Positions 8,201-55,350 of a DNA stretch of 64,000 bases are shown here, piece by piece; position 1 is the first letter of the stretch, and the number at the start of each line of letters is the position of its first letter. The notes under the pieces were generated by a model. The model saw only the letters and a list, made by a program, of their open reading frames with translations, was not told where the DNA came from and searched no databases. This DNA is from Zygnema cylindricum. Lineage: Eukaryota > Streptophyta > Zygnematophyceae > Zygnematales > Zygnemataceae. The stretch covers positions 1 to 64,000 of the forward strand of contig JBBHKE010001770.1 in NCBI GenBank assembly GCA_037447655.1. The letters are read 5' to 3'. The translations under genes and the position numbers were made by a program.

Positions 8201-11200
8201 AAGGCCAAATTCCAAAGAAACAACCATCAATGCTGAAAATTATTGCTTGAATTCCAAGTTGAATAAAAGTAACGAGGACAGTGATATCAAGTTCTATGGA
8301 GTTTTAACGTTTCACACTCTATTTGTAACCCTATAGATAAAATAAAAGCATCAACAAGGCCAGAAAGTCATACATTTAATTGTCCACAAGTTAGTTCCAG
8401 TTTTGCACAAGTTTTTGAAGGTTAAAAGAGGTTTAAACAGTCGACTAAAAGAGGTTTAAACAGTCGACCTACAGGGTCTAAACGTTTGAACAAATATTTA
8501 AATTTTTGCATGCGAAAGGGTTACTGTTTAAACCCATCAGTGAGCCCAGGTCGAATATTTTGACTTCCTTCTAGCCCTTGTACCTCTCTTGGTCACTCAA
8601 TGATTGCTACACCGTAGTCGTTATTCTTAGTTTTAAAGTTTGTTTTGCCACTTAAAACATTTTTTCTCCGTGCACACTTGTCGGATTGTCAATCCGATGG
8701 TTACTATTGGAAGGCACGTTTCGCACCTTCCTATTGGCAGTCTCTGAATGACAATCCGACAAATGTGAAAGAGAAAAAATGTTTTAAGTGGCGAAAAAAA
8801 CTTCAACACTAATAATAACGATTAGCAGTGTAGTCTAAGTCATCCGTTCTCTTTCCGGTTTGTGCTTTGAACGTTAATGCCATTACTGATGCTCTTGTAT
8901 GGTAGTCACTAGAAATATGTGGAAGTATGTCTAATCTGACTACGATTAGTCAGCGATTGTTTATAATTGTAGTTTTTCTCCCTCTTGTTATCGTTTGGAT
9001 AATAACCTGTCATTTTTTTGTCGTCCAGGCCCGGCCCTTGTGCATGGTTCAGTATCTAGCTCATTGAGTTTCAGAGGAAAAGGTTCTTCTTTTGATGTCA
9101 GCTATCAAACATGGGATGCTGGCAAGTATATTCTCACCATCGACGGCGACTGTTGCTCGTAAGTCTTGAAGTAAAGAAAAGAAGGAAAGGAGAGAATTGA
9201 GATCATCAGCATCCCTTCTTTTCTCTTCTTTCCCTTTTCCCCTCTTTTTTCTTTTTCCCCTTCTTCTTTCTTTTTTCCCTTCTTTTCTTCCCTTCTTTTC
9301 TTCTTTTCTTCCCTTCTTTTATCAATGTGATGCTTTATGTCCAGGGTCCGGTTTTGTCTGGTGGTCTGATTACATTTCAAAAATGACTTACGTTTTACGG
9401 ATAATTTTAGTCCTCTGAGTATCAATTTGCACGATTGTATGAAGTGTACCAGTACTCAGGTTTTATTCACACTACTGAGTAATTTCGATTATGTAACCAG
9501 GCTATGCGACAGACATTTAGGGTTTTTTAACTTCTTTTTTTATGTGTCTAAAAAAGCTAGAATACGACACCAGGTTTCAATAGTACATGACTTAACTGGG
9601 GATCCATTTTTGATGTCTTTTTCACAGGGACAGTGAGCAGATGATGTCACACCCTAGATAACCCTACAAAAGCCTTAAAACTCCTAAAGTGTCTTATGAA
9701 AAACCCTGATATAAAACCATGGGAAAACCTTAGAAAAGCGCTTATATACTCTAGATGACAAATGTACCAATGCTTCATTGCTTTTCAAATTTTCAGGGAC
9801 GAAGAAGCCGACAGTACCGTCTCTCGGCGTCTCGTTATGTTGGAGGTAGAGGTAGAGGAGCCCGAGGAGAAGATGCCACTTCCGACTCCATGTGAGATGG
9901 GACAAGTGGGACGATGGGTGGACACACGGGACGTGACCGAACAACCATTTGGCAGGAACTCAAATTCGGAGGTTTGGTTTGGACGACATCTCCTCGGTTA
10001 CGATCTTAGAACTACATATAAGGCCATAGGAATTCCTCCACCTCCCGTGCGACCTTATCTTCAGTTCCAGCCTTATGAGTGTGTAGGGCAGTTACAATCA
10101 TTGGACAATTTTGCAGGTGCTTTAATTAAAAGAGGCATCCGGGAGATATCTATTGTGGGAGACTCGCACCAACGGGCTCTTTTTACACATCTTCAAATGC
10201 TAGTTCATGGTGAGCACTTCTCATTTGGAAATATGGTCTTTGGTTTACAAGGATTTGTTGGCAATGTTCGATTTCGGTATTGTTAATGAATTGTACACCG
10301 CTAATCGTTATTAGTGGTAAAGTTTTTTTAGTCACTTTAAACATCATTTCTTCGTGCACACTTGTCGGATTGTCAATCTGATGGTTGCTATTGGAAGGTA
10401 AGATTCTCACCTTCCTATTGGCGGTCTCAGATGGACAATCCGATAAGTGTGCACGATGAAAAGATGTTTTAAGTGGGGAAAAAAACTTTAACACTAATAA
10501 CGATTAGCGGTGTAGTTATAATGGTCCATACACTACAACAAGCGGTTATGCATATCCAGTCTATTAGACAAATGTAGTCTCTGCAGCGTCCTCTATTCGA
10601 CATCTGTCAAATTTGAAGACACAAATATGTTCATTCTCTTTTTATTCCTCTGCTCATGCATCAAAGAAGTCACCCATTGTGTTTTTTACTTTTGAACACT
10701 GTAGATTTGGACCTTGCTTATCACATTAAAACTCAAGTGACGTGAAAGTATTAAGGCTATTAGTTCTGATATCTTATTGGATGCTATCTCCTTCGCGTTT
10801 GCAAGGATAATGTTTTGTCTATAATATAAAAAATGTACACCTAACCTTCCCATTTCTAAGATCAATGAGATCACCTAACATTTTTTGCGACGGCTTGATT
10901 GTTGGTAGATCCATCCACCTGTCTACTTTAATGAGTCTTCCTGTAAAAAAAACGTCGCTTTAAGACATTTTTGTACATATAAGGGCCATGTAAGCGTACT
11001 GGATTTTAAGATTTTCATGAAACATGAGACAGTTTTCAGTAAATGTGTGAATTGGCGCACTTACAAAAAAGTAGTTTTACTGAACCTGAACCACCCGTTT
11101 TCTAATTTTATAATCAGCAGGGCTCCCGGTTTTCATCGAACCGACAGTTTGACTAAACCTACCGATGTAAAGAGTACACGTTTTTTTTTTTTTTTTGCTA

Positions 11201-20645: not shown

Positions 20646-20683
20646 TTTCCACAATGTATCTCCACAATCGCATAAATTTCTTA
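20646..20683. repeat. 38-bp direct repeat, left copy
   Basis: The 38 bases starting TTTCCACAATGTATCTCC are identical to 30404-30441. They flank the whole block holding the reverse-transcriptase element, the LTR fragment and the gypsy element. This could be a target duplication or two members of the local satellite-like repeat seen at 30404-32100. Confidence 0.7.
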
Positions 20684-22721
20684 AAAAAAAAAAGAGGCGG
20701 GATAAATTAAAAAGCACGATGGTAAACCATCTGAGTCCGGGGGTACAAAAGGGTTGGCAAGGCCAAAACTGAAAAACTACAAGCAGTGCAATAAAGTAAA
20801 ATAAAAGCACCCAAACCCAAAATGAGAAGCACGGCAACAAACAAAACCAAAATTGCAAGCCCAACCCCAACTCGATTAAATATCCACTAAAAGCAACCCC
20901 GTAAGTCCCCCCAGCCCGGGGGAGCACGTTGAGGGAGTTCCGGAACACGTCGACGATCCAAAACCGCCATAGCCGATCGAAGGAGAATAGAAGACTGCAC
21001 TCGCTATAAAGCCACAGATAAACGTTGACAGTAAAAAGAAGTAAGCACCGAAGGAGGAGGGCTCCCAGGTCCTCGTCGCTCGAAAGCAAGTCGAGCACAG
21101 GTACAGAGAAACTCGTCCAACGCAACACCCAAACAACCAAAGATGTCGACCGCCATCAGAATAAAGTCATCCATAGGGTCCTGGTGGGCATAATCACTCT
21201 CCTTCGCCTTAGCGACATCACAAACTGCCACCCCAACATGTCGAGCCGCCTGACCAACAACAGTAGCCCAAGTAGGATTCGCCAAAACAATATCACTGAA
21301 GATGCGACGGGCACCATCGAGCAAAACAACATCAATACGGCGCGAGAGAAACCCCCCAACGCACAAAAGAGCCCCCCTCTAAAGCGATAGTCGCAACGGC
21401 GTCACGAAAAGTGTCGTGCACCTAGATCAATTCTCCCCCATGGGAGCAACAAAGCAAATGGACACCATCCCAAGACATGACCAGAGGCACAAACAAGAGA
21501 GCCAAGTAAAGGAGGATGGGGGAGGCTAAGGTGAAACCGGAGGGCGGTGGTGAACTGAGCAGGTGAGAATCGGAGAGTGGACAAAATAGGTGGAGCGAAT
21601 AGCCGAGACCCAGAACGAGGGTCACCACAAGAGAGAAGACGGACACGCTCAACGGATTTCGTAACAAGGGTGGAAAAAATCGGCACATCCACTAGGGCAT
21701 GAGGAGGAAAAGAACGTGACGCGTACAATAGAAACCGCTGGAAAGGGAACACACCGTCTGAAATCCGGGGTCCACGGTGGCTAGAACAAGTGTGTCCCCA
21801 ACCAAGAAGCAAGAAACAAGAGTGGAGGCAATAAGGCACTAACTTCCCGAATATGCAGCGGGAGCAACACGGACAGTCGATAATAGACCTAACCCCCCCA
21901 TAGAGTCACGGAGGGATGCCTGAATGCGAGCCGGAGGCCCAAACTCACGATTGAATGCCCCACGACGTAGCAGAGTGTGGAGGACATCCATGAGGCGATC
22001 ATCAAAGGCTGAGAGAGAGTACACAAACGTCGAGGTGGGAGGGGAAGTTCGAGTAAGGTCAAAAGGGCGGTGGGGGAAACACCTAGTTAATATAGCAAAA
22101 GCCACTTGGGGATCAGGATGGTGGGGAAGGTCGTCCACGTTGGCCAGGTCTGTTTGTAGAGCATTATCAAGAAATTGGGTCACGAAAGTATCCAGACCAA
22201 TGGGGCAACCCAGCACACGAATGTCATTGGAGGGAGAAGGAGTTTGAAAACCAAGAGGGGGAGTGCAGAAAAGTGGAATATCCTTAAGGGACCAAATAAA
22301 ACACTTCGAACGCTAGACTGAAAGGTTGAGTTGGCTTAACTTTCCTTGAAAAAATTATATGCCGAAACGACTTGTTCTTTAGGTCCAACAATGTGCGTAT
22401 CATCTACAACCAAAGGGAAAAGGCAAGAAGGGAAAGCGGTTGCGGAAGCACGGATGGCCTGGTAATGGGCGAGGGCAAACAAAGGTCCGCCGAAAGGGTC
22501 GCCTTCGCGAGTGCCAACCGCAGAGGAGAGAGGAATGAGGTCACCATCGGCCGAGAAGGAAAGGCTGCAGATCAAAGGATAAAAAGCCCTCACAAAGGGG
22601 AATAGTTGGACAATCATAGATGGAGCCGCCATTAGCTTTGAAAAAAATGACGTTCTGATCCACCGTATTGAAGCTATTGGAAACGTCGACCTGAAGGACT
22701 AACCAATCTGGATGTACATCT
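20684..22721 (-). pseudogene. Decayed non-LTR-like reverse-transcriptase element
   Basis: Read from 22721 downward, recognisable pieces are: PDWLVLQVDVSNSFNTVD (RT motif A region, about 22650-22712); REGDPFGGPLFALAHY and VVDDTHIVG (motif B and the catalytic Asp pair, 22336-22632); VLGCPIGLD to RIQASLRDSMGGLGL (21839-22240); a frame with LFAPPILSTLRFSPAQFTTALR (about 21550-21650); and a C-terminal region RRIDVVLLDGARRIFSDIV ... AKAKESDY (about 21004-21366). That last region resembles a restriction-endonuclease-like domain (inference). From memory, such proteins are common in bryophyte and charophyte genomes. Frameshifts and stops separate all pieces, so it is inactive. The QGDP Gln is Glu here. 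Its upstream end is cut by a Copia LTR fragment. Confidence 0.75.
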
Positions 22722-22835
22722 TGAAACTCTGAGACCTCTATAAGTCCTCAGAGTGGACAGCTTCCAAGAAGCCTCTAGGATAATCCTGACCCCTTTGTGT
22801 TTAAGCAAAAATAACTGCCACCCTGGCAGTGGAAA
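22722..22835 (-). mobile_element. Copia LTR 3'-end fragment
   Basis: On the minus strand this reads CTGCCAGGGTGGCAG through GTCCACTCTGAGGACTTAT to GAGTTTCA, matching the 3' terminal about 115 bp of the LTRs at 48691-49726 and 54075-55123. It ends in CA directly against reverse-transcriptase coding sequence. The rest of the LTR is missing. Confidence 0.8.
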
Positions 22836-22910
22836 TCTTTCACGCAGTCCGAAATTAACAAATATAGGGGGGGAGCAATCCCACCGGATTTCAAAACCAC
22901 ACTTTTTCCA

Positions 22911-23468
22911 ATGATGGTCAATTATTTTGCCGGAGGGGAATTGGCCGATTATAAGGAGCGTCAACCCTTGTTGATGGCTCCCAGTATCAAAATATCAGAT
23001 CCAGACTTGGACGCCGATGTCGTTCACGCAGCCGCCGAGTTGTCCGCCGCCGCCGTAGCTCCTATCACCACCATGTTCACTATGGACATGAAGTTGGAGG
23101 CCCAAGGTAGGGCCTATGTAAATCATCTCCAAGCGGTACAAGCCGCCGAGGCCGCCACTCGGATGATTGCCAACCCCGCTCCCTGTACGACTCTCTTGGA
23201 CGCCTGGCGACTCCATAACACAAAAAAGAACGAAACAACAATCAAGGAGTTCACCGACATCCGATATTTGAAGAATGAAACTCCTCAGACTCCGTTCAAC
23301 CGCCTCTCTAGCCTCTCTCATAAGACCAAACTGTCCACCATTGATACGCCAGCAATGGCCACCAAATACTATGTGGCTGTTCGAAATTCATTCGGGCCAA
23401 CAGGCGGCAACTCTGAAAATTATGAGTCAAGGTCGAGCGTAATCCTCCGGGCGCTAAATAACACGTGA
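22911..23468 (+). CDS. Gypsy gag, N-terminal part
   Basis: An intact 185-codon frame, rich in Ala (a DVVHAAAELSAAAVAP stretch) with predicted helices, located where capsid would be. No sequence motif identifies it on its own; the call rests on position before the zinc knuckle and protease. The start could be either of two adjacent codons (ATGATG). The region between its stop and 23821 shows only broken frames and is presumably decayed gag. Confidence 0.5.
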   Translation: MMVNYFAGGELADYKERQPLLMAPSIKISDPDLDADVVHAAAELSAAAVAPITTMFTMDMKLEAQGRAYVNHLQAVQAAEAATRMIANPAPCTTLLDAWRLHNTKKNETTIKEFTDIRYLKNETPQTPFNRLSSLSHKTKLSTIDTPAMATKYYVAVRNSFGPTGGNSENYESRSSVILRALNNT

Positions 23469-23820
23469 TAGTTGATGATCACTTTGTGAGCGGCGAAAAG
23501 AAAAGGGCGCATCGGGCGAGCCAACTTCGGCGGTTTTACGAGGGAATCACCTCTATGCCTAGGAAATCATCAACTTCAAACTTTCTTGAGAAAATGTGAG
23601 TCAAACTAAACCAACCCCGCACGCGAGATGAATTTTATCTTTACAAGCTGAATAACCAGTCAGGTTGGAAAAGATGCGAATTAACCGAACTCTTGATCGC
23701 AAAAAGGTTTGAGAAGGGCGTGCACAAAGTCCGAGGCAACAGAGGACAAGGAGGCGGAGAGGGGACCGCCGCCGGTCACTAAGACGTATAAACCTACTCC
23801 CGCTCGAAATCTTTCATCTG

Positions 23821-24117
23821 TTGAGACAAATCCGACTTCCTAAATTTTATGATGCTCAGATCTCAAATGAGCTAAAGGGGAAGTATACAACCGAGGGGTC
23901 GAAATGTGAGGCTTGTGGTTTCATGGGGCACAAAGAGGGGCAATGTTTTCGGAAGAACGGGGTCCCAAAAGAAATGCTGCAATACGCGCTGTTCACAGGC
24001 AAAGGGGAAACAGCGGTTAATCCTCAACCACTTCAACTTTTGTATCCACGGGAATGCCGATCTCTCGGTGAACTAAGGCCCAATATGATGAGACAGGAAC
24101 AGCTCATCCAGCAATAG
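23821..24117 (+). CDS. Gypsy gag zinc-knuckle segment
   Basis: Contains CEACGFMGHKEGQC, a C-x2-C-x4-H-x4-C nucleocapsid knuckle, at about residues 29-42 of this frame. Such knuckles bind the element's RNA for packaging. The frame ends at a TAG just before an open coiled-coil-like segment (QKLQKQKQELLQKLAKLEQQ) at 24127-24426, which is likely the same gag interrupted by a stop. Confidence 0.75.
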   Translation: MRQIRLPKFYDAQISNELKGKYTTEGSKCEACGFMGHKEGQCFRKNGVPKEMLQYALFTGKGETAVNPQPLQLLYPRECRSLGELRPNMMRQEQLIQQ

Positions 24118-24426
24118 AGCACTCAATTGGCCGCCTTGGCAGTAGAACTAGCCGCTCTCCGCGTGGGATCAAATGCTTGCACCCCCCAACCTCTGACGGC
24201 AGCTCAGAAACTGCAGAAACAAAAACAAGAACTGCTGCAAAAGCTGGCAAAGCTGGAACAGCAAACCGCAGTGGGGGGTAATGACAATGACCTTATGGGA
24301 TGGGATATAGAGCCTACAAATGCTCATCATGCTCGGACATTACTATCCGAAGCGTGGAACGTTGGAGTAGGGGATAGTCGTAGGCAACTGCGCCCTACAA
24401 CGTCCTCCCAGAGAAAGGACAAATAA

Positions 24427-25555
24427 CCGATAGAACGAGGGGACCACAGCCGCAAAGCCACCGGTCCTTTATCCTTCACACCCAGAGCGGTCCTCCTGAA
24501 CAATGACATTGGGCTGGGCCTAAAGCCGACTCATCCGCCTCCTCCAGCTCCAAAGAAACTTCCCCCTGGTTTCGAAGATTTTAAAAAACCCCAGCCGAAA
24601 AAAGATCCTTCAACCATTGAGACAGATCAGGAATGGTTCGACCGATACCTAGCTGAAAGACCAACCACAGATCCGCCGATGACACCTCCCACAAGGAATT
24701 CTGACGAAGAAAGTGAGGAAGCAGAAAGGGGGGAACAGGAGAAATCAGAAGACAAGGATTCACCCATTTCATCTCCCAAAGCTCTCCCTCGTTCCTCCAA
24801 GTTGACAGTAATGCTAGTACGGCACTTGATGCCCTACGCTCTAACTCACGTCAAAACGCTAGCCTCCTCTCACAATTTGCCCGAAAAAACACTCATACAG
24901 GCATTAGGGGAAGAGATTCACACAGAAGAGAAAGGGTCGCGTTTGCAAAACCACCCAAGACAAGCCTCATGGCGGCAAGACCAAAAACTTCTATGGCGGA
25001 TAGATATTATAAGGCCCTGTCGGTGGCTCTTATTCTTAACAGGACAGGAAATTTTAAACTTAATGGATACGACGGGTATCATGATGCAGTGGTAGATACC
25101 AGAGCTCTTCGAATCTCATAACCACATCAACATTACAACAAATGCCCGAGGAACTTCGGCCGAAAATCAGTCCAAGTGACATATGCTTGAGTACGGCCAG
25201 CAGTGGGAGCCAACCAGTATATGGCATCATCAAGGCAGTGGAGATCGAATTTGATAATGACGCGGGCCAATACGTTCAAATTCAACTCCACTTCCTAGTG
25301 GTGGAAGGTAAGCAATTTGAAATTTTGCTAGGTATGGCTACGTGGACAAGGTTTAACATGGAGTTGAGCGTGTGGAAGGAACAATTTATAGTTTCAGAAC
25401 CGAAGGACCCAAAGGGCACCAAAGTGGTGGTCCCCTTGGGTTTATGGAACCGGGGGAAAACAACCATTCCGGTATCTGGATGCTATCCCGTATACTCTAT
25501 ATCAACCCCTTCGGAGATGTTTGAAGACTCCACAGATATTGCTGACTCCATCTAG
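24427..25555 (+). pseudogene. Gypsy linker and retropepsin-like protease, damaged
   Basis: A frame open from about 24427 to 25119 has a Pro/Glu-rich linker. In an adjacent frame, at 25089-25106, lies AVVDTRAL, where retropepsins have D-T/S-G-A: the Gly codon is AGA (Arg), so the active-site loop is mutated. The frame at 25142-25555 continues with HFLVVEGKQFEILLGMATW, matching the later strand and ILLG block of retropepsins. Protease is therefore split over at least two frames and predicted inactive. Confidence 0.65.
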
Positions 25556-25719
25556 CAATTCCCTATTTCTAAGCGGTTGGAAAGAGAGTATCATAATCAA
25601 TTGGTATTTGGCCACACTTCGGCGGGAAGTGGACAGGAACTTTGCCGCCATATCGCACGGAACCGCAAAGGTTCTCCGGTCAAAACTTTCAACAGTTTCT
25701 AACAAAGGGAAGGACTTCG

Positions 25720-26822
25720 ATCAACAAATGGTGTCACTGGAGATCTTGCCATCGAGACTCAGGATTCCATCACTATTTTCCGGTATCAGTTTTGACCTGG
25801 AAGCCGTCCTGAAAGCTGGATACAAAGTAGAAACATACTCGGCAGTCGAGATTGACCCGGACGCCGGTGCATTCAGTGAGTATAGACTACAACAGCTTCA
25901 CCAACTTTACCCACAGCAACTCCCGGTATTTGCCATGTCTAACTCTCACCGCAAGCTTCCCCAGAATGTTGATAACATCACAAATTCGCATTTGGAAAAG
26001 CTAGGAAGAGTGTGGATAACATCACAAATTCGCATTTGGAAAAGCTGGGAAGAGTAGATCTGGTGGTCGCTGGATGGCCATGCCAAGCGTATTCATTAGC
26101 ACGACAGGGCAGGGGACACCATGATGTCCGTAGCAAAACATTCTTCCAGATGATGCGACTGATAATAGAGATATAGAAACGTGAGGACACGCCAGTGGGG
26201 TACGTCTTGTAAAATGTTTACCCCACAGGTGATAAAAGAAAACAGGTGGTCAGCAGCTAGAACCAAGTAACTCAAGTTCTGGGGACTCCCATAGTTTTTG
26301 ACGCAGCTCAGATCAGATCAAAGGCCCACAGAGTTCGAGCTTATTGGACCTACTTGGTTCCTCTTTCCATCCTCCAACAGTTGTTGAAAACACAAGTTCC
26401 AGATCCTAGCATCACAGTTCAGCAGATTCTCGGACAAGAGAGAATGGCCACTCCCGTGACCAAAGCCGACCGAGCACCCTTCTTCTGTTGCAATCATCTC
26501 GGGAATCCACGGAAAGCCCTTCCAACCCTGGTATCATTCCCTAATAGCCATGCTTACCGAAAAGGTGCACCAAGAATGATATTTGACAAAACAGCCGCTA
26601 CGTGGACAACACCAAGTATTGAAGATCGGGAACAAGCAATGGGATTTCAGCGGTCTCAATCTCAAAAAGGTGTCGTTTGATCGGGCAAAGTATAGATTTG
26701 AATGCAATTTCTTGGGTGCTGCAACATTCTCTGGCATTCTCCAGCCTACAATCTCCAAAGTCACGGACAACATACCTTCAAGCTCCACAATTGTAGGCCA
26801 TGCAAGCTACTCTACAGCTTGA
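25720..26822 (+). pseudogene. C5 cytosine DNA methyltransferase captured in the gypsy element, disrupted
   Basis: Motif I is SLFSGISFDLEAVLKAGY (25770-25823), followed by the acidic AVEIDPDAG. Motif IV, the catalytic Pro-Cys, is VVAGWPCQAYS with Cys at 26081-26083. ARQGRGHHDVRS and FFQMMRLI follow, as in this family. Motif VI (ENV) falls at 26210-26218, where Glu is replaced by TAA, leaving NV. Motif VIII-like QIRSKAHRVRAYW (about 26311-26349) and C-terminal TWTTPSIEDREQAMGF (about 26600-26650) follow. A 44-bp tandem duplication at 25971-26057 shifts the frame before motif IV. In-frame stops lie at 26174, 26210 and 26258, and another shift at about 26650. The enzyme family transfers methyl groups from S-adenosylmethionine to cytosine C5. 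The GWPCQ and REQAMGF forms recall DNMT3/DRM-like or prokaryote-like lineages; the clade is not resolvable by eye. Confidence 0.88.
25971..26057. repeat. 44-bp tandem duplication inside the methyltransferase
   Basis: GATAACATCACAAATTCGC starts at 25971 and again at 26015, and both copies continue through GAAAAGCT(A/G)GGAAGAGT. The period is 44 bp, which is not a multiple of three, so the duplication shifts the frame between motifs I and IV. The two copies differ at one position. Confidence 0.95.
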
Positions 26823-27104
26823 GGGGGGGAGAAAGGCAAGAAGAGAAAAATTCACAAAATTACATTCAGATAGCACACTGAACCTAGGAGTTTCCTCAGT
26901 GGGGGGGAGCGGAGGCTTAGAACACGAAATTGTCAGTAGCAACGTTTTTGCGGCCGAGCAAGGGACAGATCCACAAGTAGAGCTTAAATTCGACATCTCC
27001 CTCTCGATCGACGGTCGGAAACATGACCTGTAGTTGAACCCGGAAAGATGTATTGGATTCTAGAGGAACAGCTAGATCCACATCAGTAGGCTTGGCTCTC
27101 GAAG

Positions 27105-27740
27105 GTGTTAGAGGAGAATGGGCAGGTGTTCTCTTGGTCTGACACAGACATAGGAATCTATAAGGGGACCCATTTTCGAATAGATCTGACAGATGAGACG
27201 TCAACTGTTTGGCAGAAACAGTACTCTCTCAGATTCAAGGAGAAGGAATTCATCACCGCAAAGGTGCAGACTTTGGTAGACGCAGGGCTAGTGCAGGAGA
27301 GTACCAGGCTACATGAGTTTGCCTCTCCAGCAGTGCTCCAACCAAAGAAAGACTCCTCCAGGAAAACTGTAGATTACCGGATGTGTGGAGACTATCGGAT
27401 GCTCAACACAGCAACTATTTTCGATAGTGATCCCATGCCCACCACGGAAGAGGTCTTCGATTCTCTTGTTGGGGCCACCATTTATTCCACGTTGGATATG
27501 AAAAATGGATTCCACCAGATTGCAATGGAGCCAAAGCACCGAGAGGGAACCGCTTTTTGGGCACGATCCACGTTGTATGAGTGGCTGTACATGCCATTTG
27601 GTCTCAAAATGCACTTGCAAAATTCCAACGGGTTGTGGACGAGGCCCTCCGAGGAATTGATTGCGCACGTTGTTACATTGACGATGTGATCATTTTCTCC
27701 TAGACATTTGAAGAACACTTGGAGCATATATAGATCGTTT
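27105..27740 (+). pseudogene. Gypsy reverse transcriptase, frameshifted
   Basis: Frame 27105-27689 carries the Ty3/gypsy RT fingers and palm: SPAVLQPKKD, KTVDYRMCGDYRMLN, STLDMKNGFHQIAM (motif A catalytic Asp), then WLYMPFGLK. The YIDDVIIFS catalytic pair lies in another frame at 27674-27700, so one indel occurred at about 27600-27660. Downstream, DDARAEYL and similar RT/connection residues are interrupted by stops at about 27700-28090. Confidence 0.85.
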
Positions 27741-28094
27741 TTCGGGCTCTCCAAGCAACGGGCTTGGAGTGCCATCCGGGGAAGGGAATATTTGGGGTAG
27801 AGAAAATTATTTATCTGGGTCATGAATTGGCTTCGGGACAGTGGGTCCCCAAATGGTTAAGGTGGCAACTCTCGACGCACTTCCACCCGCGCAGGACATT
27901 TCTGCCCGCCGTACTTTCCTAGGTCTGGCCAACTATTACTGGAGGTTTATTCTCAAATTCAACAGCCACGCCCTGCCATTGAATCAATTATTGCGAAATG
28001 ACCAGGAGTGGCAATAGGTAGAAGAACATGAGATCACTTTCCAGTTCTTCAAAGAATCCCCTGAAGCAGCATCTGGTGCTCCGGATGCCGATCA

Positions 28095-28500
28095 CCAACG
28101 ACCAAACCTCTTTTATACTGATTGGAGCAAATTCGGATTGGGAGTAGTGCTGGCTCAATTGGATGATGCACGGGCGGAATACCTAGTGGCTTCCGCCAGC
28201 CGGAGCAATAACAGGGCCGAGGGGAATTACAACAGTTAACACGGGGAATTACTCGCCGCAGTATGGGCCATCACATAGTTCAGGCCTTACCTCTATGGAG
28301 TACACTTCACCCTTATTACGGATCACCAACCCCTCAAATGGATAATGGAGAACAGTAAGTTGACCGGCAAGCTGGCCAGATGGGTTCTCATTTTGCAGGA
28401 ATACGATTTCAACATCATCCACCGAGTAGGGGAGATTCATGGGAATGCAGACGGACTCAGCAAGAATTCAAACCCTTCCACCAGAGACTCTACTGGGCTT
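28095..28500 (+). pseudogene. Gypsy RNase H, with stops
   Basis: LFYTDWSKFGLGVVLAQ (first catalytic Asp), then HGELLAAVWAI (Glu), FTLITDHQPLKWI (Asp) and IIHRVGEIHGNADGLSK (final Asp), the Ty3/gypsy RNase H1 signature with YGVHFTLITDHQPL spacing. Stops interrupt between blocks at about 28239 and 28277. The last part is open from 28345. Confidence 0.8.
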
Positions 28501-28645
28501 GGCACGATGAAGACCCGGAGCTTAGCTTGGGACTTATCCGAGCTTCCTCTACCTCCATTTGGCTGCCTTGAGCTGAAGGAGAACTGTCAACTTTTGCTAG
28601 GGACGTCGAGGGGCATGCTCCCACTGGAGCCGGCCGCAAGGATAT

Positions 28646-30100
28646 TTGGAATGGCATCGATTCCCTCAGTCCATACAGAATGGTTCCCCTCTCCCTCACT
28701 TGGTCGAGAGTCATTTGTCCCTTGTTCGGACCTGGATGGTGGCGTATGAATGGGACAAAGGCATTCTTCTCAAGAAATGGGCCAATGGGACGAGGAAAGT
28801 GGTTCCTCCTCCGGCAGATCGACAAACCCTCATTGTTCGACTTCATCAGCAATGCGGGCACTTCGGACAGAAACGAACAACCTCACTAGTTACAAGGTCT
28901 TACTGGTGGTATGGGTTGCGGGCCCAACTCAACCATGTGGTGCAGACGTGCCCTTCCTGTGACCGGGTGAAAGCCGCCTTTGACAAGAAGGGTGGAACGG
29001 AACTTCATTCTCTCCCTATCCGGGGGATGTTTAACAGGTGGTCACTGGATTTGCTGGGACCACTTCGAACCAGCCGGAGGGGAAACCGTTTTGTTCTGGT
29101 AACGATTGAACACTTCTCCAAATGGATCGAACTGGTGGTTCTTCCCCGAAAGGAGTCAAAAGCAATCGCGGAAGCATTCTTGCAGAGAGAATTGTCCCAA
29201 TTTGGAGCACCGGCCAAAGTTCTCACGGATCAGGGGTCTGAGTTTGTCGAAGAATTTTCTAATCATTTGGAGAAGTGCCTCATTGACCATCGGTTGACTA
29301 GCCGAGACCACCCCCAAGCCGACAGTTTGGCTGAGAGGTGCGAACAGATAGTGAAGCGGTCAATACGAAAATATGTAGTTGAAGAGGATTTGGGGGAATG
29401 GGATAGACGGGTGCCTTGGATTGCCATGGTATACACGATCAACAGGCAGGCCTCCCTCCTATTCTATAGCTTTCACTTCATTCTCTTCGGCCGACATCCC
29501 ATCCTATTTGGAGCTGCCTCCGCTCAAGCGGTTGTGCTTCCGGAAATGGACAACCGGAGGACTGTCGAGAAACTAATTGCCGACCGGGCCAAAGTATTTC
29601 ACCGGGAAATACCTCTGGCTATGGGCAATTTACAGGCTGCTCAGCACCAGGATCAGCTCTGGTATTCCCACCGCCGGAGAGGGAATTATGTCCCACGACA
29701 ACGACGATTCATGCCTGAGGATTTTGTGTATCGCATGCAACAGAAGAAGGATACTTTGGACATTTTGGCCGGACGAGTGATACTGAAAGTAGTGGAGGTC
29801 TCTAACAAAGGGGTTCTTACCTTGGAGGGGAAAGATGGCCGCAAAATCAAAGAAAATCAGATCAATGTGGCTCCTTGCCACTTGCGGGGGTTAGAAGACG
29901 AACCCTCTTTCCACCTCGCCTATTTTGCAGAACCACCCTCTTGTTCCTTTGCTTGCAATGGGTCCTCTGTGCCCGACCTTCTGTTAATGTGTGAACACTT
30001 TCACGAGGGGTGGCATGACTGCTGCCTACCACTGAATTGGGAGCCCTGCTCTCAACTCGCAAATCCGTGGTTCTGTGGGGACTGCGAATTTGGCGGCTAG
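28646..30100 (+). CDS. Gypsy integrase with GPY/F-like module and C-terminal PHD-like finger, intact frame
   Basis: 484 codons without interruption. The zinc domain is HQQCGH ... CPSC. The catalytic DDE residues are in WSLDLLGPL, LTDQGSEF and ADSLAERCEQ. The C-terminal module ends KENQINVAPCHL, as in the GPY/F module. The last about 50 residues form a Cys/His cluster: CSFAC, LLLMCEHFHEGWHDCCLP, WFCGDC. This matches a PHD finger (LLLCDxCDxGWHxxCL ... WxCPxC), except that the expected second Cys of the CxxC before the histidine is Phe. PHD fingers read histone tails, so here it may guide integration to chromatin (inference). The true start is unclear; the first codons overlap the polyprotein in another frame. 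Confidence 0.85.
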   Translation: MEWHRFPQSIQNGSPLPHLVESHLSLVRTWMVAYEWDKGILLKKWANGTRKVVPPPADRQTLIVRLHQQCGHFGQKRTTSLVTRSYWWYGLRAQLNHVVQTCPSCDRVKAAFDKKGGTELHSLPIRGMFNRWSLDLLGPLRTSRRGNRFVLVTIEHFSKWIELVVLPRKESKAIAEAFLQRELSQFGAPAKVLTDQGSEFVEEFSNHLEKCLIDHRLTSRDHPQADSLAERCEQIVKRSIRKYVVEEDLGEWDRRVPWIAMVYTINRQASLLFYSFHFILFGRHPILFGAASAQAVVLPEMDNRRTVEKLIADRAKVFHREIPLAMGNLQAAQHQDQLWYSHRRRGNYVPRQRRFMPEDFVYRMQQKKDTLDILAGRVILKVVEVSNKGVLTLEGKDGRKIKENQINVAPCHLRGLEDEPSFHLAYFAEPPSCSFACNGSSVPDLLLMCEHFHEGWHDCCLPLNWEPCSQLANPWFCGDCEFGG

Positions 30101-30403
30101 TTTGTCAAATCCTCTTAGTTATACGGGACTCAGAGGAGGGGGGGAATCTGAAAGGGGTACGGGGTACTTTTTGTTTTTTCACTCCACTCCTCATTATTAC
30201 CTATGCATATCCCTAGGGGGGGAAAAGACAGAGAAGGGCCTAGTCCAAGTCCGGGGAATCATCAGCATTTGGGGTGGATGGCAGGTTTCTCATGCACACC
30301 TCATAGGACATCTTACCTGAACCTCACGGTCCCCAGGCACGCTCGACATGTTTGTGCCATAAAAAAATCTTTGGTAATCTAACCATGTGCCTTTCCCCCT
30401 TTC

Positions 30404-30441
30404 TTTCCACAATGTATCTCCACAATCGCATAAATTTCTTA
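30404..30441. repeat. 38-bp direct repeat, right copy
   Basis: Identical to 20646-20683. It is followed by GGGTGGATTGTCAATTTTGTACAAAG-type sequence that also occurs at 31617 and, diverged, at 32050, so it is part of a local repeat family. Confidence 0.7.
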
Positions 30442-30712
30442 GGGTGGATTGTCAATTTTGTACAAAGTCTTACATTAAAATCTACAAAACCAATCTTTAT
30501 TGGTAATTGTTGGGGCCATAATAGCATTTCCATGGTTATCTAACGGTGCGCGTTTCACTCTGATTACACATCATCAGCCTTGGAAGTGGATTATATGTCC
30601 GGTTTAGGACCGAGTTGTTATATTGACAAAGATCGATACCACTCTCAGTACTGAAAACGGAAGTCATTATTTCTAGTGAGATAATCATTAATAATCAGTT
30701 TGAATCGATAAT
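30442..30712. repeat. About 270-bp direct repeat, copy 1
   Basis: Runs from GGGTGGATTGTCAATTTTGT through CATGGTTATCTAACGG and TGTCCGGTTTAGGACC to GATAATCATTAATAATCAG. It recurs nearly identically at 31617-31880, with a short CATCA indel. The two copies flank the microsatellite and minisatellite block. Confidence 0.9.
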
Positions 30713-30798
30713 ATACACATATATATACACATATATATACACATATATATACACATATATATACACATATATATACACATATATATACACATATATAT

Positions 30799-30855
<57 letters not shown>
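30711..30855. repeat. TATATACACA and (TA)n microsatellite
   Basis: About eight TATATACACA units followed by about 24 TA units. The open frame across it on the minus strand is repeat-derived. Confidence 0.97.
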
Positions 30856-30857
<2 letters not shown>

Positions 30858-31069
30858 GACATTTTTCCCCCTCCTGGACATATATATTTTGGTCGAGTGG
30901 GTGTGTGTGTGCATGTGTGTGTTTGTGCGTACGATGTTTGGAACTCGCTATATGGGGGGATGGGGAGTTTGGCGATTTGTGAGAGGGGGTGAAGAGGCTA
31001 GTAATGACACAGGGGGGTCACACCTATGGTTTTGCCAATGTGTGTGTGGTTGGCAGCGGCCGCAGGCCA

Positions 31070-31530
31070 GATCCTTAGGTTCATGGTGACGAGAAGTATG
31101 TGCCGTTGAGTAGTGAGGGAGGAAAAGACGACAAAGTGTAGATCCGTAGGTTTATGGTGACGAGGAGTAGGTGCTGTCGCGTAGTGAGGGAGGAAAAGAC
31201 GACTGTGTAGATCCGTAGGTTCATGGTGACGAGGAGTAGGTGCCTCTGCGTAGTGAGGGAGGAAAAGACAACAGTGTAGATCCTTAGGTTCATGGTGACG
31301 AGGAGTAGGTGCCGTCGTGTAGTGAGGGAGGAAAAGACGACACTGTAGATCCGTAGGTTCATGGTGAGAAGTAGGTGCCGTTTCGTAGTGAGGGAGGAAA
31401 TAAGGACAATGTAGATCCGTAGGTTCATGGTGACGAGGAGTAGGTGCCGTTGCGTAGTGAAGGAGGAAAAGACGACAGAGTGTAGATCCATAAGTTCATG
31501 GTGACGAGGAGTGAGGGAGGAAAAGAAGAC
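31070..31530. repeat. About 60-bp minisatellite
   Basis: Seven or eight imperfect units built on GTAGATCCGTAGGTTCATGG and GACGAGGAGTAGGTGCCG, then CGTAGTGAGGGAGGAAAAG. Some units are short: the last lacks the GTAGGTGCC block. The minus-strand frame (SLTTRRHLLLVTMNLRIY repeats) is a by-product of a unit near a multiple of three and is not called as a gene. Confidence 0.93.
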
Positions 31531-31616: not shown

Positions 31617-31880
31617 TGCGGTGGATTGTCAATTTTGTACAAAGTCTTACACTAAAATCTACAAAACCAATCTTTATTGGTAATTGTTGGGGCCATAATA
31701 GCATTTCCATGGTTATCTAACGGTGCGCGTTTCACTCTGATTACACATCAGCCTTGGAAGTGGATAATATGTCCGGTTTAGGACCGAGTTGTTATATCGA
31801 CAAAGATCGATACCACTCTCAGTATTGAAAACGGAAGTCATTATTTCTAGTGAGATAATCATTAATAATCAGTATGAATC
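31617..31880. repeat. About 270-bp direct repeat, copy 2
   Basis: Second copy of 30442-30712. It is followed by an (AATCACTAAT)n-like array at 31880-32050, apparently expanded from its own AATCATTAATAATCAG end. Confidence 0.9.
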
Positions 31881-32050
31881 GATAATAATCACCAATAATC
31901 ACTAATAATCACTACCAATCTCTGATAATCACTGATAATCACTCATAATCACTCATAATCACTAATAATCACTAATAATCACTAATAATCACTAATAATC
32001 ACTTATAATCACTAATAATCACTAACAATCACTAATAATCGCTAATAATC
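31880..32050. repeat. TAATCACTAA short tandem array
   Basis: About eighteen imperfect AATCACTAAT units of 9-10 bp. The region 32050-32890 that follows is AT-rich with one further diverged local repeat and nothing else recognised. Confidence 0.92.
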
Positions 32051-33204
32051 TCCACAATAATATAAATTTCTTTGGGGCATTTGTCAACCAGCCAATTCAT
32101 ACAAATTTTACACTAAAACTTACAAAACTAATCTCTATAACCATGTTGAATTTACGAGACCATTATTTTTCTAGCGAATTCATCATTTTCTAGCCTAAAA
32201 AGTGAAAAATCTTTGAAAAACTGATTGCGATACATATTCTGACACTCAACCGAGTAATTTTACGTCAGCATTCTATGAGAATTCGCGGAAAAAAAAATAC
32301 GGAATTGCAGATCTGGACATTTTTATTTTTTTTGTTATTTGTAATTTAAAACCTCAACTTTGTTTTTTTTTTCTTTCAAAAAAATTCAATGCGTCTAATC
32401 AACCAGATTGGCGATTTTACTTTTTAACTTTTTAGTTAGGGTTTGTGAAAAGAGTCGGAAAAAAATTTATCATAGCTGTGGAAACAGTTAAGAGGGTGAA
32501 AGTATTTTTTTTTGCACTACAAAATTGGAATTGTAACCAATGCCTTTTTTTCTTTATGTAACTCAACCTGTGACATCAAGTAACTACCCTAAAATAGTTC
32601 AAATTCTTTGATATTATAACCCCATTTTTTCCCACTCCATCCAACATCCATCACCATGCATCCTGCCATTCTCCTCCCTCCCTCCATCATCCTCCACACC
32701 TCACTCCCTCCAATCCACTCAAGATACTTTCTTAAATAAATGAATTAAATTTTGAACGAAGTTGTTAACACAATTTAACGTTTAAATTCTAAAATATTTC
32801 TAAACGTCGTTTTTCAATCTGCCTGAAATGGGAAGGCTAAAAAGGCTAAATCAGGTCAAAAAATAATTGCTTGTGTGTCATCCTCGGAATAAGAATCAGA
32901 TTCCATGTACTCTGTTTAAGACTAGATAAACTGTCAGTTATGACATCTCTGTTTTTGGAAAAGCCATCATTGGAAAAACCATTATTGGAAGAACCATCAT
33001 TGGGAGGACAGACAACATGGCAATTTAAGACACTTACTATAAACCTATAGTAACTCATAATACATGATATTACCGTATTATAATACTATAATACTGTATA
33101 CACTAAAGCAAAATAATACTCTAATACTGCTTACTGGAAATGAAGTGACAGCATCATGGTCCCTTATTCTCATCTTTGTGTACCTCGAAACCTTCATGGA
33201 CATC

Positions 33205-36400: not shown

Positions 36401-39400
36401 CCTGGAACACAGTACCCTCAGCCGATTGAAGTACACGCGTCACATTTTTTTGTCTTTTTGTATTATCAGCGTTACCACCTACCATTTTTTCCAGCGTCCA
36501 GTTGGGAAGTAGAAAAACCTAGGGTCAGATGTCAAATTATGTCCTAACTGTAAGTAGCCTAACAAAACAAAACGCTTTGCACTAGATAAAAAAGTACGAG
36601 ACAAATACAGGTCTCTAATCTACATCGTTTTGGAAGTAGCCAATAGGGACGGAAATGATTGTCAATTGTCGCTGATCAACAGAAAGACGATAAAAGCAAC
36701 ATATTTCTGTCTTTATTTTTGTCAAAAAAAAGAGAACAAAAGAAATTGGCGATTATCGGCAGCTAAAAGCTTGGCAATATTTTTTTATCCCAGAAGAACG
36801 TGAGACGCCAGAGTCGTAGGAAAAGAAAAAAACAGAAAACGAAAGTGTTGGAGAAAAAAAAACAGAATCATTGTTTTGAATTTTTTACTGTTTTATCAAT
36901 ACTTCCAAAACTGTAAGGTGAATACCCAAAGGCACAAGGCACAAGGGATGGTAGTCTTCAGACCAGGATAGGTCCGAAAATGTCAAGGATGTTTTTTGTA
37001 AGTACTGGGGTTTTATTGAAGTCACTTAACAAGTAAATCTATATACCTTGTAATGTGGACACGTCTCCCTGTTCATCCTAAAATTGTCAACCTGCAACGG
37101 CAAGGTTGCAATAGTAGGGTTATATATTGGAGACATATTTTAGTGTTGTGTATCCACTAATTTTTTATCGCGATAAATCCGATAACCGATATTATCGGTT
37201 ATCGAACGGTGAGGGGTCCCGATAAACCGCTCCGGAACCAACAAAAATTATCGCCGATAATTATTGGTTCGGGGGGTTTGTCCGTACAAAAAGTACGGAA
37301 TTATGGCACAGAAATAAAGTACGAAATGAGTACGGAGATATCACGACGGGGAGGGGGAGGGGGGGGGCTTTTGGACATGTTTCACAATCCATTCCGTACC
37401 AGAGTACGGAGTTATCGTCGATAGATATCGGCCCGATATTTATCGGTAATTCATCACGATATATCGGAAATTTATCGCGATAATTCTTTCACCGATATAT
37501 CGAACCAATATATCGATTATCGGTAGGTTAAAAGAAGGTACATATCGGTTATCGGCAAATGGCTACCAATAAACAACACTAATATTTCCTGTATGCGATA
37601 AAGGGTATAGTTTTGACCCTCGATACTCAATGCAACAACCTTTTCGATATTGATATCGCTATTCGATACACAGACGGGAAATACAAAACGAAACCAAAAA
37701 AAAAAATATAACCTCACCTGTCCATAAGTCCTGAAACCCTAGACCAATGTCAGAGTGCGAACCTAGAGTGAGGCTCCCTTCCTCTTTGTTTTTCTTCTTC
37801 TTCTGAACCGCACCACAGAGATTTGGCATTTGTCCAACAGATTGAAATTGCATGTCTGCTTGCTGTAGTGTACGGACAAGTACAACTACCCTTCATGAAC
37901 AACACCAAAATTGCCCATTGCTGTAGTGTACAGACCAGTACAACTACCCTTCATGAACAATACAAAAATTTGCACATTTTCAACAGATCCTTGTAGCCAA
38001 TGGCCATATTTCCGAATCAGAAAGGCTCACCATAAACTAGCATTTGAAGATGTACAAAAAGTCCCCTTTGGTGCGAGTCCCCGACGATAGATATCTCCCG
38101 AATGCCTCTTTTAATTAAAGCACCTGCAAAACTGTCCAATGGTTGCAGCTCCCCTACACATTCATAGGGCTGGAACTTAAGGTAAGGCCGCCCGATAGGT
38201 GGCGGAATTCCTTTGGCATTATAATAAGTTCTAAAACCCAAGATTTGTCGTCCTATCCGACCTTGCCTGTGTATTATCCTGTTAAATTTTTGTTTGTCCA
38301 CAGCCCTTGTGTCCACCCAGCGTCCCACTTGTCCCATGTCACATGGCGTCAGAACTGACTCCAAGTCCTCGGGCTCCTTTACCTCCACCTCCAATAGGAC
38401 GAGCCGCCGGGAGGCCGTGATGCCAGTCACTTCATCCCTGACAACTTGAAAAGCAACAGCTTATCAGCAAAGCTGCTATTTACACTTTTTAAGAGTTCTT
38501 TTGAGGGTTCTTTTAAGGGCTTTTTAAGGGATTTTTAAGGGCTGTTTAAGGGTTTTTTTTACGTTCTATTGAAGGTCTTTTTTTAGGTTGTTTTTGAGGT
38601 TTTTTTCGGGGTTCCTTTTAGGACATTGTTAAGAGTTATCGGAGTTGTTTGTGTTTCTGTAGGGTTTTCTAGGGTGCTGCATCTCATGCTCAATGTCCCT
38701 GCGAAGAATGAACCTGGTGGCCTGCTCTCACTTCTTAAGCACATAAAACAAAAAACCTAAAATACCCTAAATGTGCTCTCATAGCCTGGTTACGTGGTTG
38801 AAAGTTACTCATGTCTTATGAGTAAAACATGAATACTCGTACACTTCATACAATAATTTGACTACTCATGCGCATAAATACACACCGAAAAGTACTACTA
38901 CTCAAAAAGAGAAAGTAATTTTCGACAATGTAACCAGGCTGTTAGAAAAAACTGAACCTTGCCAAAAGCATCACATTTTAAAGTCAAAAGAAAGTATGCA
39001 GATGACCTCATTCCTCTTCTTTCCTTCTTTTATTGACTTGAAGACTTACGGGCAGCAGCTGCTGTCGATGGTGAGAATATACTTGCCAGCATCCCATGTT
39101 TGATAGCTGACATCAAAAGAAGAACCTCTTCCTCTGAAATGCAATGAGCTAGATACTGAAGCATGCACAAGGACCGGGCCTAGACAACAAAAAAATGACA
39201 AGTTATTATCCAGACGATAACAAAAAAAAACTACAATTATAGGCAATCATCGTCAGATTAGACATACTTCCGCATACTTCTAGTGATTACCATACAATAG
39301 CATCAGTAATGGCATTAACGTTCAAAGCACAAACTGGAAAGTTCGAGAACGGATGGCTTAAACAAGTGATCATTCGTCACCAAGAGAGGTACGAGGCCTA

Positions 39401-48690: not shown

Positions 48691-49726
48691 TGTAGAAATT
48701 AATGGTTTTAAGTATTTTTCTAGGTCTAAATAGAAAACAAAGAAGCCGAGGCAGTCTACTCTAACTTCTCTCTCCAACTCTCAAACTTGTCGCAGTCACT
48801 GAGAAATTGGAGAGGAAGCTAGAGCCATGGCTACCTAAGCTATCCTCAGGTTTACGGGAAATTTATATTAGTTAGGGTTTATTTATTTAAAAAGAATGTG
48901 CCGCCAACAGGAATTGATCCTTGTACCTACCCGCCGGCAGACACGAAATAGCCGGTAGCCTTAGCCGTTAACTCTAGGAATAACATTACGTAGTATGTTG
49001 TTTGATATTTATTTAAACACGTAAACATAGGATATCATTTAATTGTAATTGTTTACGGTATACATAGATCCGGTAATGTATAAGTACGGAATACGGTACG
49101 AGCAAGAAATCAATACCGCGCATTTATTTCTTAAGTGAAATGAATACCGCGCATGTATTTATTACGGCTACAATTAAATTCAATTCTAATCGGACGGCCG
49201 GAATTAGCGCCGAGATCGCGGAAGAAGATTTCGGCGGTTTGTGGCCATCGCCACGTCAGATGACGCGTGGCGAAATTACATTGGATCGTGGAATCTCCAG
49301 AGATTATAGCACCGAATCCGGATATGACATGTGTCGACATTTAGGCCATGACGTACAATGTCCGTACATAAAGTACACTGACAGCTGTACTTTTTCGTAC
49401 GGAACTGTATTCTGATTGGTTTCGTATATCGGTAAATAGAGTATGTGAGAGAGATATGACTTAGAAAAATTAGGAGATAGGACCCTCTCTCCCAGAGAGC
49501 TTCTGTACAAAAGGTCAACTTTGACCCTCCATAACTTACTGCTCAGGGGAGCACATTCATAGATTCTTTTTGCTATCAACTCATGGGAGTCTTGCCTTCA
49601 CAGGGATGCAGGTGGTCAAAGTTTTTGTCTGCCAGGGTGGCAGTTATTCACAAAGGGGTCAGGATTATCATAGAGGCTTCTTGGAAGCTGTCCACTCTGA
49701 GGACTTATGGAGGTCTTAGAGATTCA
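48691..49726 (+). repeat. Copia 5' LTR
   Basis: TG...CA ends (TGTAGAAATT to GATTCA). It includes CTCGCAGTCACTGAG-like blocks, CGGACGGCCGGAATTAGCGCC and the terminal CTGCCAGGGTGGCAG. A short internal segment with a tRNA-like GATCCTTGTACCTA box at about 48910-48935 is unlikely to be a tRNA. It is about 90% like the 3' LTR by eye, with indels. Confidence 0.85.
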
Positions 49727-49741
49727 GGTTATGGGCCCACC
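49727..49741 (+). other. Copia primer-binding site (half-tRNA initiator Met type)
   Basis: GGTTATGGGCCCACC is complementary to the anticodon-arm region of initiator tRNA-Met rather than to its 3' end. This is the half-tRNA priming described for Drosophila copia, whose site begins with the same GGTTATGGGCCC. Confidence 0.75.
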
Positions 49742-50853
49742 CTCTAGGGTACCAATTTTTAATGGAACTGGATTCATATACTTGGAAAGTATGATGATAG
49801 GAGCTCTATGCGAAAAAAGGTTTTGGGGAATAGTGAGTGGACGGTTGGGGCGTCCATCAAGTCTTGGAATTCCTCCAGGTTTGGAGGAAGCAGATTCACC
49901 AGGAAAGAGGATCCATCTTCAACGGAGGAAAAAGAAGGAGTGGTGGTGGACAAAAGAAAGGAGAAGGAGACGACCACACCAATACCAACTGGTTCGAAAT
50001 TCATGTCACCTATTCCGAGGAACGAGGAGAATGATACTGAAACCTGAGACTTCAACAATATGGCGGCAAAGTACTTCATCCTACGCCATCTCACTCAAGG
50101 ACTTGCATGTCCTCATTTGCAGGTAGAAAGGGCATCCAATCTTTGGATGGCTCTCATAGAGATGTACTGAAGTGGTACGATTCAGCAACAACAGTTGGCT
50201 GATCAGAAAGTTAAGGAGTATGTATACAAAGGGGGAAATATGTTGGATTTTTGCAATGAGCTTGCTACACTCTTCATGGAGCTAGAGAGTGCGGGAAAAG
50301 ATTTTAGTGAAAAAGAAAAGGTTAACTGTTTACTGATGAAGTTACCTGATGAGTTCGAGAACATAGTCAACCGTGTGCAGGACTTGCCGGACTCAAGGTG
50401 GATATGGAACTCAGTGGTAGGGATGATTCTCGTTCGAGAGAATACAATTGAGATCCGAAGGGGAGGAAAGAGTGGCCAAGCCTTGGCAACAGCGACTGAT
50501 TGGAGGAACAAGGATTCCCGAAAACCGGTCGGAAACTATGGGGTAGGGAGCAGAAAAAACAGGCCGACGCGTTCGAACCTAGGGCTCCCAAAGGTTTATG
50601 TCATTTTTGTAAGAAACCGGGGCACTATATGGCAGAGTGCACTAAGCTAACCGAGCTTCGGTTAAAGGAGGGGCAGATCGGTGGTACCCTGAGAGGAAAG
50701 AAAAAGGCCCTTGTCACAGAGGTACTTGAGGCGGAATCCGAGGACGAGGACGATGAGCTCCTTTTGATTGAGGAGTTGGAGGCGAAAAATGAGGTCGAAA
50801 TTCCACGAATGCAGAAATGTGCTTACGGTGGATTGAAAGGTGAAGCACGCTAG
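49731..50853 (+). pseudogene. Copia gag with CCHC knuckle, frameshifted
   Basis: Begins MGPPSRVPIFNGTGFIYLES with MMIGALCEKRFWGIVSG, the usual Copia gag opening. It continues after disruption at 50195-50650 (FCNELATLFMELESAG, NCLLMKLPDEFENIV), then in another frame at 50500-50853. That last frame holds CHFCKKPGHYMAEC (C-x2-C-x4-H-x4-C) and an acidic tail. At least two frameshifts separate these. Confidence 0.8.
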
Positions 50854-53195: not shown

Positions 53196-53222
53196 AGAGA
53201 CCGAAAAAGAAAGATTATAAGA

Positions 53223-55123: not shown

Positions 55124-55350
55124 TATTCAAATATCCGCAGCTTCGTAGCAGCTGCGTTATCACATACAAAAGTTAGCCGCAGCTGCGATTGTCTTGTTGC
55201 GTAGCAACTGCGTTGTCATGTACCAAAATATCCGCAGTTGCGTTTGACCTGTTGCGTCGCAGGCTGCGTTTGTTCGTACAGACCATATCAAAAATAAACG
55301 CAGCTGCGCTTGTTCCATCTGCGTCGCACCTGCGTTGTTGGTACCATTGA
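55124..55350. repeat. CGCAGCTGCG-rich tract, copy 1
   Basis: At least nine variants of CGCAGCTGCG, CGCAACTGCG and TTGTTGCGTCGCA spaced by 20-40 bp. It starts exactly after the 3' LTR. A similar tract is at 60350-60515. From 55350 to 55685 nothing else is recognised. Confidence 0.8.

Follow-up and report, generated by a model that had tools for sequence, protein, structure and literature searches.

Chromoviruses are Ty3/gypsy retrotransposons with a chromodomain on the integrase, and these chromodomains are thought to tether the chromovirus integration complex to chromatin. The gypsy element REM1 of Chlamydomonas has a PHD finger and unusual repeats and, to our knowledge, no DNA methyltransferase (MTase). 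A gypsy element with a Dnmt3 MTase, KnitGypsy-Dnmt3, was described in Klebsormidium nitens (de Mendoza et al., 2018; PMC5890265), a report restated in PMC12344493. In the passages of the former paper compared here, retrotransposon DNMTs are able to methylate CG de novo, and the DNMT elements of Symbiodinium are treated as independent captures (PMC5890265). Here we analyse a 64,000-nucleotide stretch of Zygnema cylindricum DNA (the window; contig C1326, positions 1-64000, in a 352.8-Mb assembly of 2689 contigs), which holds, at 22829-30348 on the forward strand, a 5'-truncated, broken Ty3/gypsy copy. In identity and anatomy it is almost certainly a decayed copy of an abundant Ty3/gypsy-type long terminal repeat (LTR) family, whose open sister copies encode both a DNMT3-type cytosine MTase and an integrase-linked PHD finger. 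The element belongs to the known kind of DNMT-bearing gypsy elements, an assignment made in an initial annotation of the sequence and borne out by the MTase type, its place in the Pol frame and the A-coding-B-A-B repeats that it shares with the Klebsormidium element.

The domain organization is seen in sister copies in the same genome. In two family-A copies (L033 on contig C1374 and L034 on C544), single frames of 1520 and 1525 amino acids run from the MTase through reverse transcriptase (RT), RNase H and integrase to the PHD, with a protease frame preceding the MTase-to-PHD frame in L033. Family B (L031 and L032) has CCHC, protease, MTase, RT, RNase H, integrase and PHD, all within one frame of 2287 amino acids in L031 and within two frames in L032. 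RVT_1, RT_RNaseH, H2C2 and rve score above the Pfam cut-offs in L031, L033 and L034, and the family-B CCHC and protease matches score below them. The sister-copy order is thus gag-protease-DNMT3-type MTase-RT-RNase H-integrase-PHD, and the MTase position between protease and RT that had been read from the window alone is the same in the sister frames.

The MTase is found throughout the family rather than in the window copy alone. The L033 MTase protein matches at least 119 genomic places at 64-100% identity, a lower bound given that 118 of 1891 candidates were scored, and the integrase-PHD part matches at least 90 (90 of 8407 candidates scored). Four pairs of copies have identical open MTase stretches (L001/L002, L008/L009, L019/L020 and L022/L023), so that haplotigs or very recent copies inflate these counts. 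The PHD is included in 76 of the 90 integrase matches (those reaching query residue 467 or beyond, counted by hand), and an MTase match lies 1.6-3.3 kb upstream of 37 of the 90, in a comparison that used the 119 MTase rows but only 15 of 123 PF00145 rows. Furthermore, MTase sequence is present at 12 of 20 integrase copies drawn randomly from 52 others, the window being left out. With MTase sequence at these 37 matches and 12 sampled copies, the MTase is a regular part of the element, and the possibility raised beforehand, that other genomic copies would lack it, did not hold for the sister copies. A 5743-amino-acid open frame on C961, with 1001 N in its upstream stretch, was set aside as a probable artefact.

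With motifs in the order I to X, the MTase is nearest to the DNMT3 catalytic domain in both PDB and Foldseek comparisons. Its best PDB sequence match is DNMT3A (57 bits), followed by DNMT3B (42), HhaI (26) and DRM2 (21), and the 50 Foldseek matches listed are all DNMT3 entries; in NCBIfam only the dcm superfamily was matched, below its cut-off. In open copies the enzyme sits inside the Pol frame. Between L033 and L034, the ratio of nonsynonymous to synonymous substitution rates (dN/dS) is 0.12 for the MTase and 0.11 for the RT. Across 53 pairs of open copies the median MTase ratio is 0.24, although these ratios are not independent, some pairs are identical, and the set is skewed low because copies were chosen for open MTase frames. 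Judged from these ratios, the MTase has very probably been kept by selection. The ADD domain of animal DNMT3 enzymes reads unmodified H3K4; none was recognised in the element's enzyme. The presence of a DNMT3-type MTase and an integrase PHD in one polyprotein is a suggestive parallel to the animal arrangement, though by analogy and not as proof.

Relatives in other organisms carry the same pair. A search of 5.8 billion proteins, with Pfam domains taken from the database's own column, returned 82 matches to the integrase-PHD frame and 43 to the MTase part of the polyprotein. Of the latter, 27 contain rve and 23 of these 27 also contain PF00628, so that the MTase-PHD pairing, singled out in the initial annotation as the least expected feature, is real and not a one-off. 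Among those with rve but no PF00628, P0088 ends in a divergent PHD-like cluster, seen by eye, and the K. nitens protein P0122 stops before the point at which the PHD would lie. Named sources of the MTase matches are K. nitens, Closterium and Marchantia polymorpha, with Calypogeia and Riccia in addition for the integrase part. Two relatives, P0120 and P0023, have a chromodomain plus a PHD. The MTase lies either before the RT, as in the window, or between RNase H and integrase. In the MTase tree (41 rows), all 16 rows of this second order fall inside one group of 22 (100/99), together with 5 rows cut before the RT and one MTase-only row. In the integrase tree (28 rows), seven of the eight MTase-before-RT rows group together (94/89, just below the tool's mark), with the long-branched P0129 outside, and the RNase H-MTase-integrase rows are not resolved as one group. 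Because DNMT3A is a long-branch outgroup, the root is unsure. These trees fit one old MTase partnership followed by a later move of the MTase; the alternative is two separate captures. Four Marchantia polymorpha proteins (P0090, P0092, P0100 and P0104) show no recognised domain after the MTase, and their frames contain neither RT nor integrase, possibly a third layout.

The finger at the integrase end is canonical in family B, where PF00628 matches at 1.5e-9 and the nearest solved fingers are those of PHF12, BAZ2B, WSTF, KDM5 type and BHC80/PHF21A. Several of these fingers bind the H3 tail. The C4-H-C3 set of eight ligands is complete in L031, L033 and L034. It is also complete in 16 of the 20 family-A copies retrieved; a stop interrupts the finger in three of these 16, and the remaining four lack one ligand or more. 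In a subfamily of five, L121, L124, L126 and L127 retain all eight ligands while their other PHD residues differ; the set is incomplete in the fifth member, L122. No chromodomain was matched in the scanned frames of the window (E 10) or of the sister copies (E 1).

The ends of the element were read in chosen copies. Its genomic form is TGTC-A-coding-B-GC-A-B-GACA, with split repeats instead of the simple LTR-coding-LTR plan. A complete family-B copy on C1344 consists of A1 (931 bp), coding region, B1 (242 bp), GC, A2 (931 bp) and B2 (243 bp), with A1 and A2 identical across all 931 bp and TTGG on both sides of the copy. Family A also has the A-coding-B-A-B plan (A about 1187 bp, B about 210 bp). 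Among 20 family-A 3' junctions, B1 meets A2 in 14, with GC (12) or GT (2) between them, five stop at GACA against other DNA, and one has no terminus; for L083 only the first bases of A2 lie within the stretch. The copies on C1374, on C544 and in the window end at GACA without A2. Just before B1 lies a G-rich tract resembling a polypurine tract; inspection by eye revealed no primer site of the tRNA type. Besides C1344, exact 4-bp target duplications flank C1508 (AGTG), C953 (CACT) and C507 (ACGT), that is, four of the six full-structure copies in which both outer ends were read. This count excludes copies whose left end was not found (C10, C2595, C1836, C917, C233 and C2496), C2630 (neither end found), C1407 (left end truncated) and C961 (left end not fetched). 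The copies L033, L034 and C1920 end exactly in TGTC and GACA, yet have neither A2-B2 nor a target duplication. The internal junction, GACA-GC-TGTC, is palindromic, and its GC is absent from the outer ends. Together, the TGTC/GACA ends and the 4-bp duplications point to joining by a DDE integrase rather than by a tyrosine recombinase.

Transposons are usually targets of DNA methylation; here a family under selection bears its own DNMT3-type enzyme and a reader-like finger, which raises the question of whether a silencing mark and a histone reader can serve as a means to enter or survive in chromatin. We propose that the MTase travels with the Pol proteins and would carry out de novo methylation of new complementary DNA or of the fresh insert; the copy would thus arrive in the genome already carrying the mark that such DNA normally bears. 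The terminal PHD of the integrase would tether the integration complex to the histone H3 tail, in a chromodomain-like manner as in chromoviruses. The integrase, in turn, would cut a circular or two-repeat DNA intermediate at its B-GC-A junction, presumably within the palindrome whose two halves match the outer ends; GC at the internal junction only is what such cutting would leave. To this explanation as a whole, a self-methylating, chromatin-guided element proposed from sequence and domain comparisons, we assign a probability of roughly 0.5. As to its parts, the odds that the MTase acts on the element's own DNA appear evenly balanced, histone reading by the PHD to steer integration is plausible but falls slightly short of that, and junction cutting by the integrase is offered more tentatively still. 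A wider version, in which a broad, probably streptophyte, gypsy clade would combine this writer-reader pair (a self pre-methylating MTase and an H3-reading PHD) with DDE cutting of GACA-GC-TGTC instead of ordinary LTR-end joining, is unlikely to hold in full. The 4-bp duplications and DIRS-like split repeats nonetheless raise the question of how a DDE integrase would use a permuted DNA form.

Several observations weigh against this explanation. DNMT-less elements also transpose in these hosts, according to the passages compared (PMC5890265). Eight of the 20 sampled integrase copies show no MTase, seven of these eight also being without the adjoining linker and RT, and MTase and integrase occur without a PHD in the relatives P0110 and P0111, of which P0111 is from Closterium. 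The family-A finger is divergent, with a first pair spaced C-x3-C and PF00628 matches below the cut-off of 24 bits (L033, 0.0044 and 17.5 bits; L034, 2.4e-4 and 21.5 bits); its nearest PDB matches (MLL3, MTF2 and ATXR5) are weak, its AlphaFold model is poor (mean predicted local distance difference test score 57), and its dN/dS between L033 and L034, at 0.32 and from few changes, exceeds that of the MTase. Exact duplications are absent from two of the six full copies (C1393 agrees at 3/4 bases, C1120 at 2/4), and among four copies without A2-B2 only C549 (CCCT) has one, not C1374, C544 or C1920.

The divergent spacing and weak Pfam score of the family-A finger, together with the lack of any finger in the Closterium type, would suit a finger that serves the integrase structurally or by binding nucleic acid rather than as a histone reader; this is a serious possibility, although we doubt it, as the family-B PHD is canonical and its nearest solved fingers are those of PHF12, BAZ2B, WSTF, KDM5 and BHC80. 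The MTase, for its part, might dampen the element, self-methylation reducing transposition and so sparing the host, one of the options offered in the text of PMC5890265. The selection data fit such a role equally well, but selection for self-restraint is harder to maintain, and the large copy number, with at least one copy retaining identical 931-bp A repeats, speaks of recent success, which makes dampening unlikely. The element's repeats could also be taken to mark it as a DIRS element that inserts by means of a tyrosine recombinase, since the A-coding-B-A-B plan is called DIRS-like in the parts of PMC5890265 compared. We rejected DIRS membership as very improbable: an rve integrase lies within the frame, no tyrosine recombinase was matched in the frames scanned, and the TGTC/GACA ends and the exact duplications at four of six full-structure copies are at odds with it. 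That the MTase is a role-less host gene fragment carried by chance in one gypsy copy, as the broken window copy and the eight sampled copies without MTase might suggest, is refuted for practical purposes by an MTase that is regularly present and constrained, being in frame with RT and integrase in L031-L034, found at the many genomic places counted above, low in dN/dS and shared with relatives in other organisms.

The window copy itself belongs to family A by DNA alignment. Its segments 22829-23404 and 23747-30348 align at 79.8-82.3% DNA identity to the copies on C1374 and C544, which excludes a chance product. The left edge is 5'-truncated; the right edge, at 30348, is a true terminus, as this GACA is also the end point or the junction in other copies. 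The bounds first proposed (22911 to 30130) were therefore close, though short of both edges. All features lie on the forward strand. The protease region (24730-25552) is split over three frames, recovered with the L033 protease frame by tblastn as three pieces of 74-84% identity, with RVP_2 at E 0.05 only; the sister protease frame itself matches Asp_protease_2 at 2.1e-4, below the cut-off. The MTase (25755-26785, start approximate) was delimited by PF00145, tblastn pieces and motifs, and contains a 44-bp tandem duplication (25963-26050, repeat family D10). The four motifs quoted in the initial annotation, LFSGISFDLEA (25773-25805), AGWPCQAYS (26069-26095), AHRVRAYW (26324-26347) and EDREQAMGF (26621-26647), are all present but do not form one frame: motif I lies in one frame, IV to IX in a second and X in a third, with internal stops. 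Where a failure of PF00145 over 25720-26820 had been named as a refutation, the profile instead matches 26006-26173 (E 8.5e-9, 35.7 bits, cut-off 22), with no match on the other two MTase pieces tried or on longer window open reading frames (ORFs); long window ORFs gave no Pfam MTase or PHD match because the copy is frame-shifted. Stops and frame changes disrupt RT and RNase H (27003-28497; RVT_1 3.5e-9, RT_RNaseH 1.5e-12). The integrase (28601-30100) has an open frame, with 86% identity to the L033 protein across 470 amino acids, H2C2 (8.4e-15), an rve core (1.3e-11) and a C-terminal PHD remnant. This PHD-like finger (29942-30085), aligned with four sister sequences, does end the frame as described, but Phe stands in for one Cys among its eight ligands, and PF00628 scores only E 0.9 and 10.1 bits. 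The 3' region (30101-30348) comprises the G-rich tract and repeat B, ending in GCTCGACA, the terminus common to other copies. Being broken, the window copy is unable to mark its own copies or to direct integration, and the suggestion that it could do so found no support.

The element lies in a repeat-rich neighbourhood. An exact 38-bp direct repeat (20646-20683 and 30404-30441) surrounds a GC-richer block holding a remnant resembling a long interspersed element (LINE) and the gypsy copy; ORFs resembling LINE-type RT remnants, identified by eye, lie at 20684-22700 on the reverse strand, with no Pfam match in the one piece tested. Copia-type elements occur at 22722-22829, 54204-55126, 49700-53760 (+) and 62412-63756 (-), with RVT_2 at 5.6e-67 and 1.7e-14, and the 108-bp piece beside the gypsy 5' edge has 98% identity to 55016-55123. 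Downstream of the element are a 271-bp direct repeat (97%; 30443-30713 and 31620-31887) and tandem arrays with unit lengths of 12, about 69 and 10 bp (30711-30860, 31022-31512 and 31855-32084). Two similar ORFs, at 9759-10286 (+) and 38017-38460 (-), have ISIVGDSHQR in common and no Pfam match, and are possibly host gene exons.

With KnitGypsy-Dnmt3 the element shares, as far as the passages compared go, a Dnmt3-type MTase that is not rearranged, lies within the Pol frame and is under purifying selection, together with, according to a figure legend, A-coding-B-A-B repeats (PMC5890265); P0122 of K. nitens likewise has the MTase-RT-integrase order and clusters with the window family when integrases are compared in a tree. 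It differs in that a PHD is unmentioned in the main text of that paper (0 matches to "phd", the figure lying outside the comparison), nor do the passages compared mention target duplications or the GC junction (PMC5890265); the available K. nitens proteins end short of where a PHD would lie. A PHD may be visible in the K. nitens figure or supplements of PMC5890265, in which case the Zygnema element would be no more than a further member of this known kind. In the openly licensed literature searched, figures and supplements being outside its scope, we found no report of the MTase-PHD pairing in gypsy, nor of the second domain order in gypsy or of the 4-bp duplications. SymbioDIRS-Dnmt3 and SymbioLINE-Dnmt of Symbiodinium are also retroelements with a DNMT, and SymbioDIRS likewise occurs in two domain orders, but in the parts of the paper compared they are tyrosine-recombinase or LINE elements, not gypsy elements with rve (PMC5890265). 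REM1 is likewise an algal gypsy element, and differs, in the parts of the report compared, in its truncated integrase in a reverse frame, with a GPY/F module and chromodomain only (PMC2774666). Cutting of the repeat junction by the DDE integrase, as proposed here, would resemble that in circle-forming insertion sequences. With chromoviruses, finally, the element has in common a gypsy Pol whose integrase ends in a chromatin-reader-like domain; in the frames scanned here this domain is a PHD and not a chromodomain.

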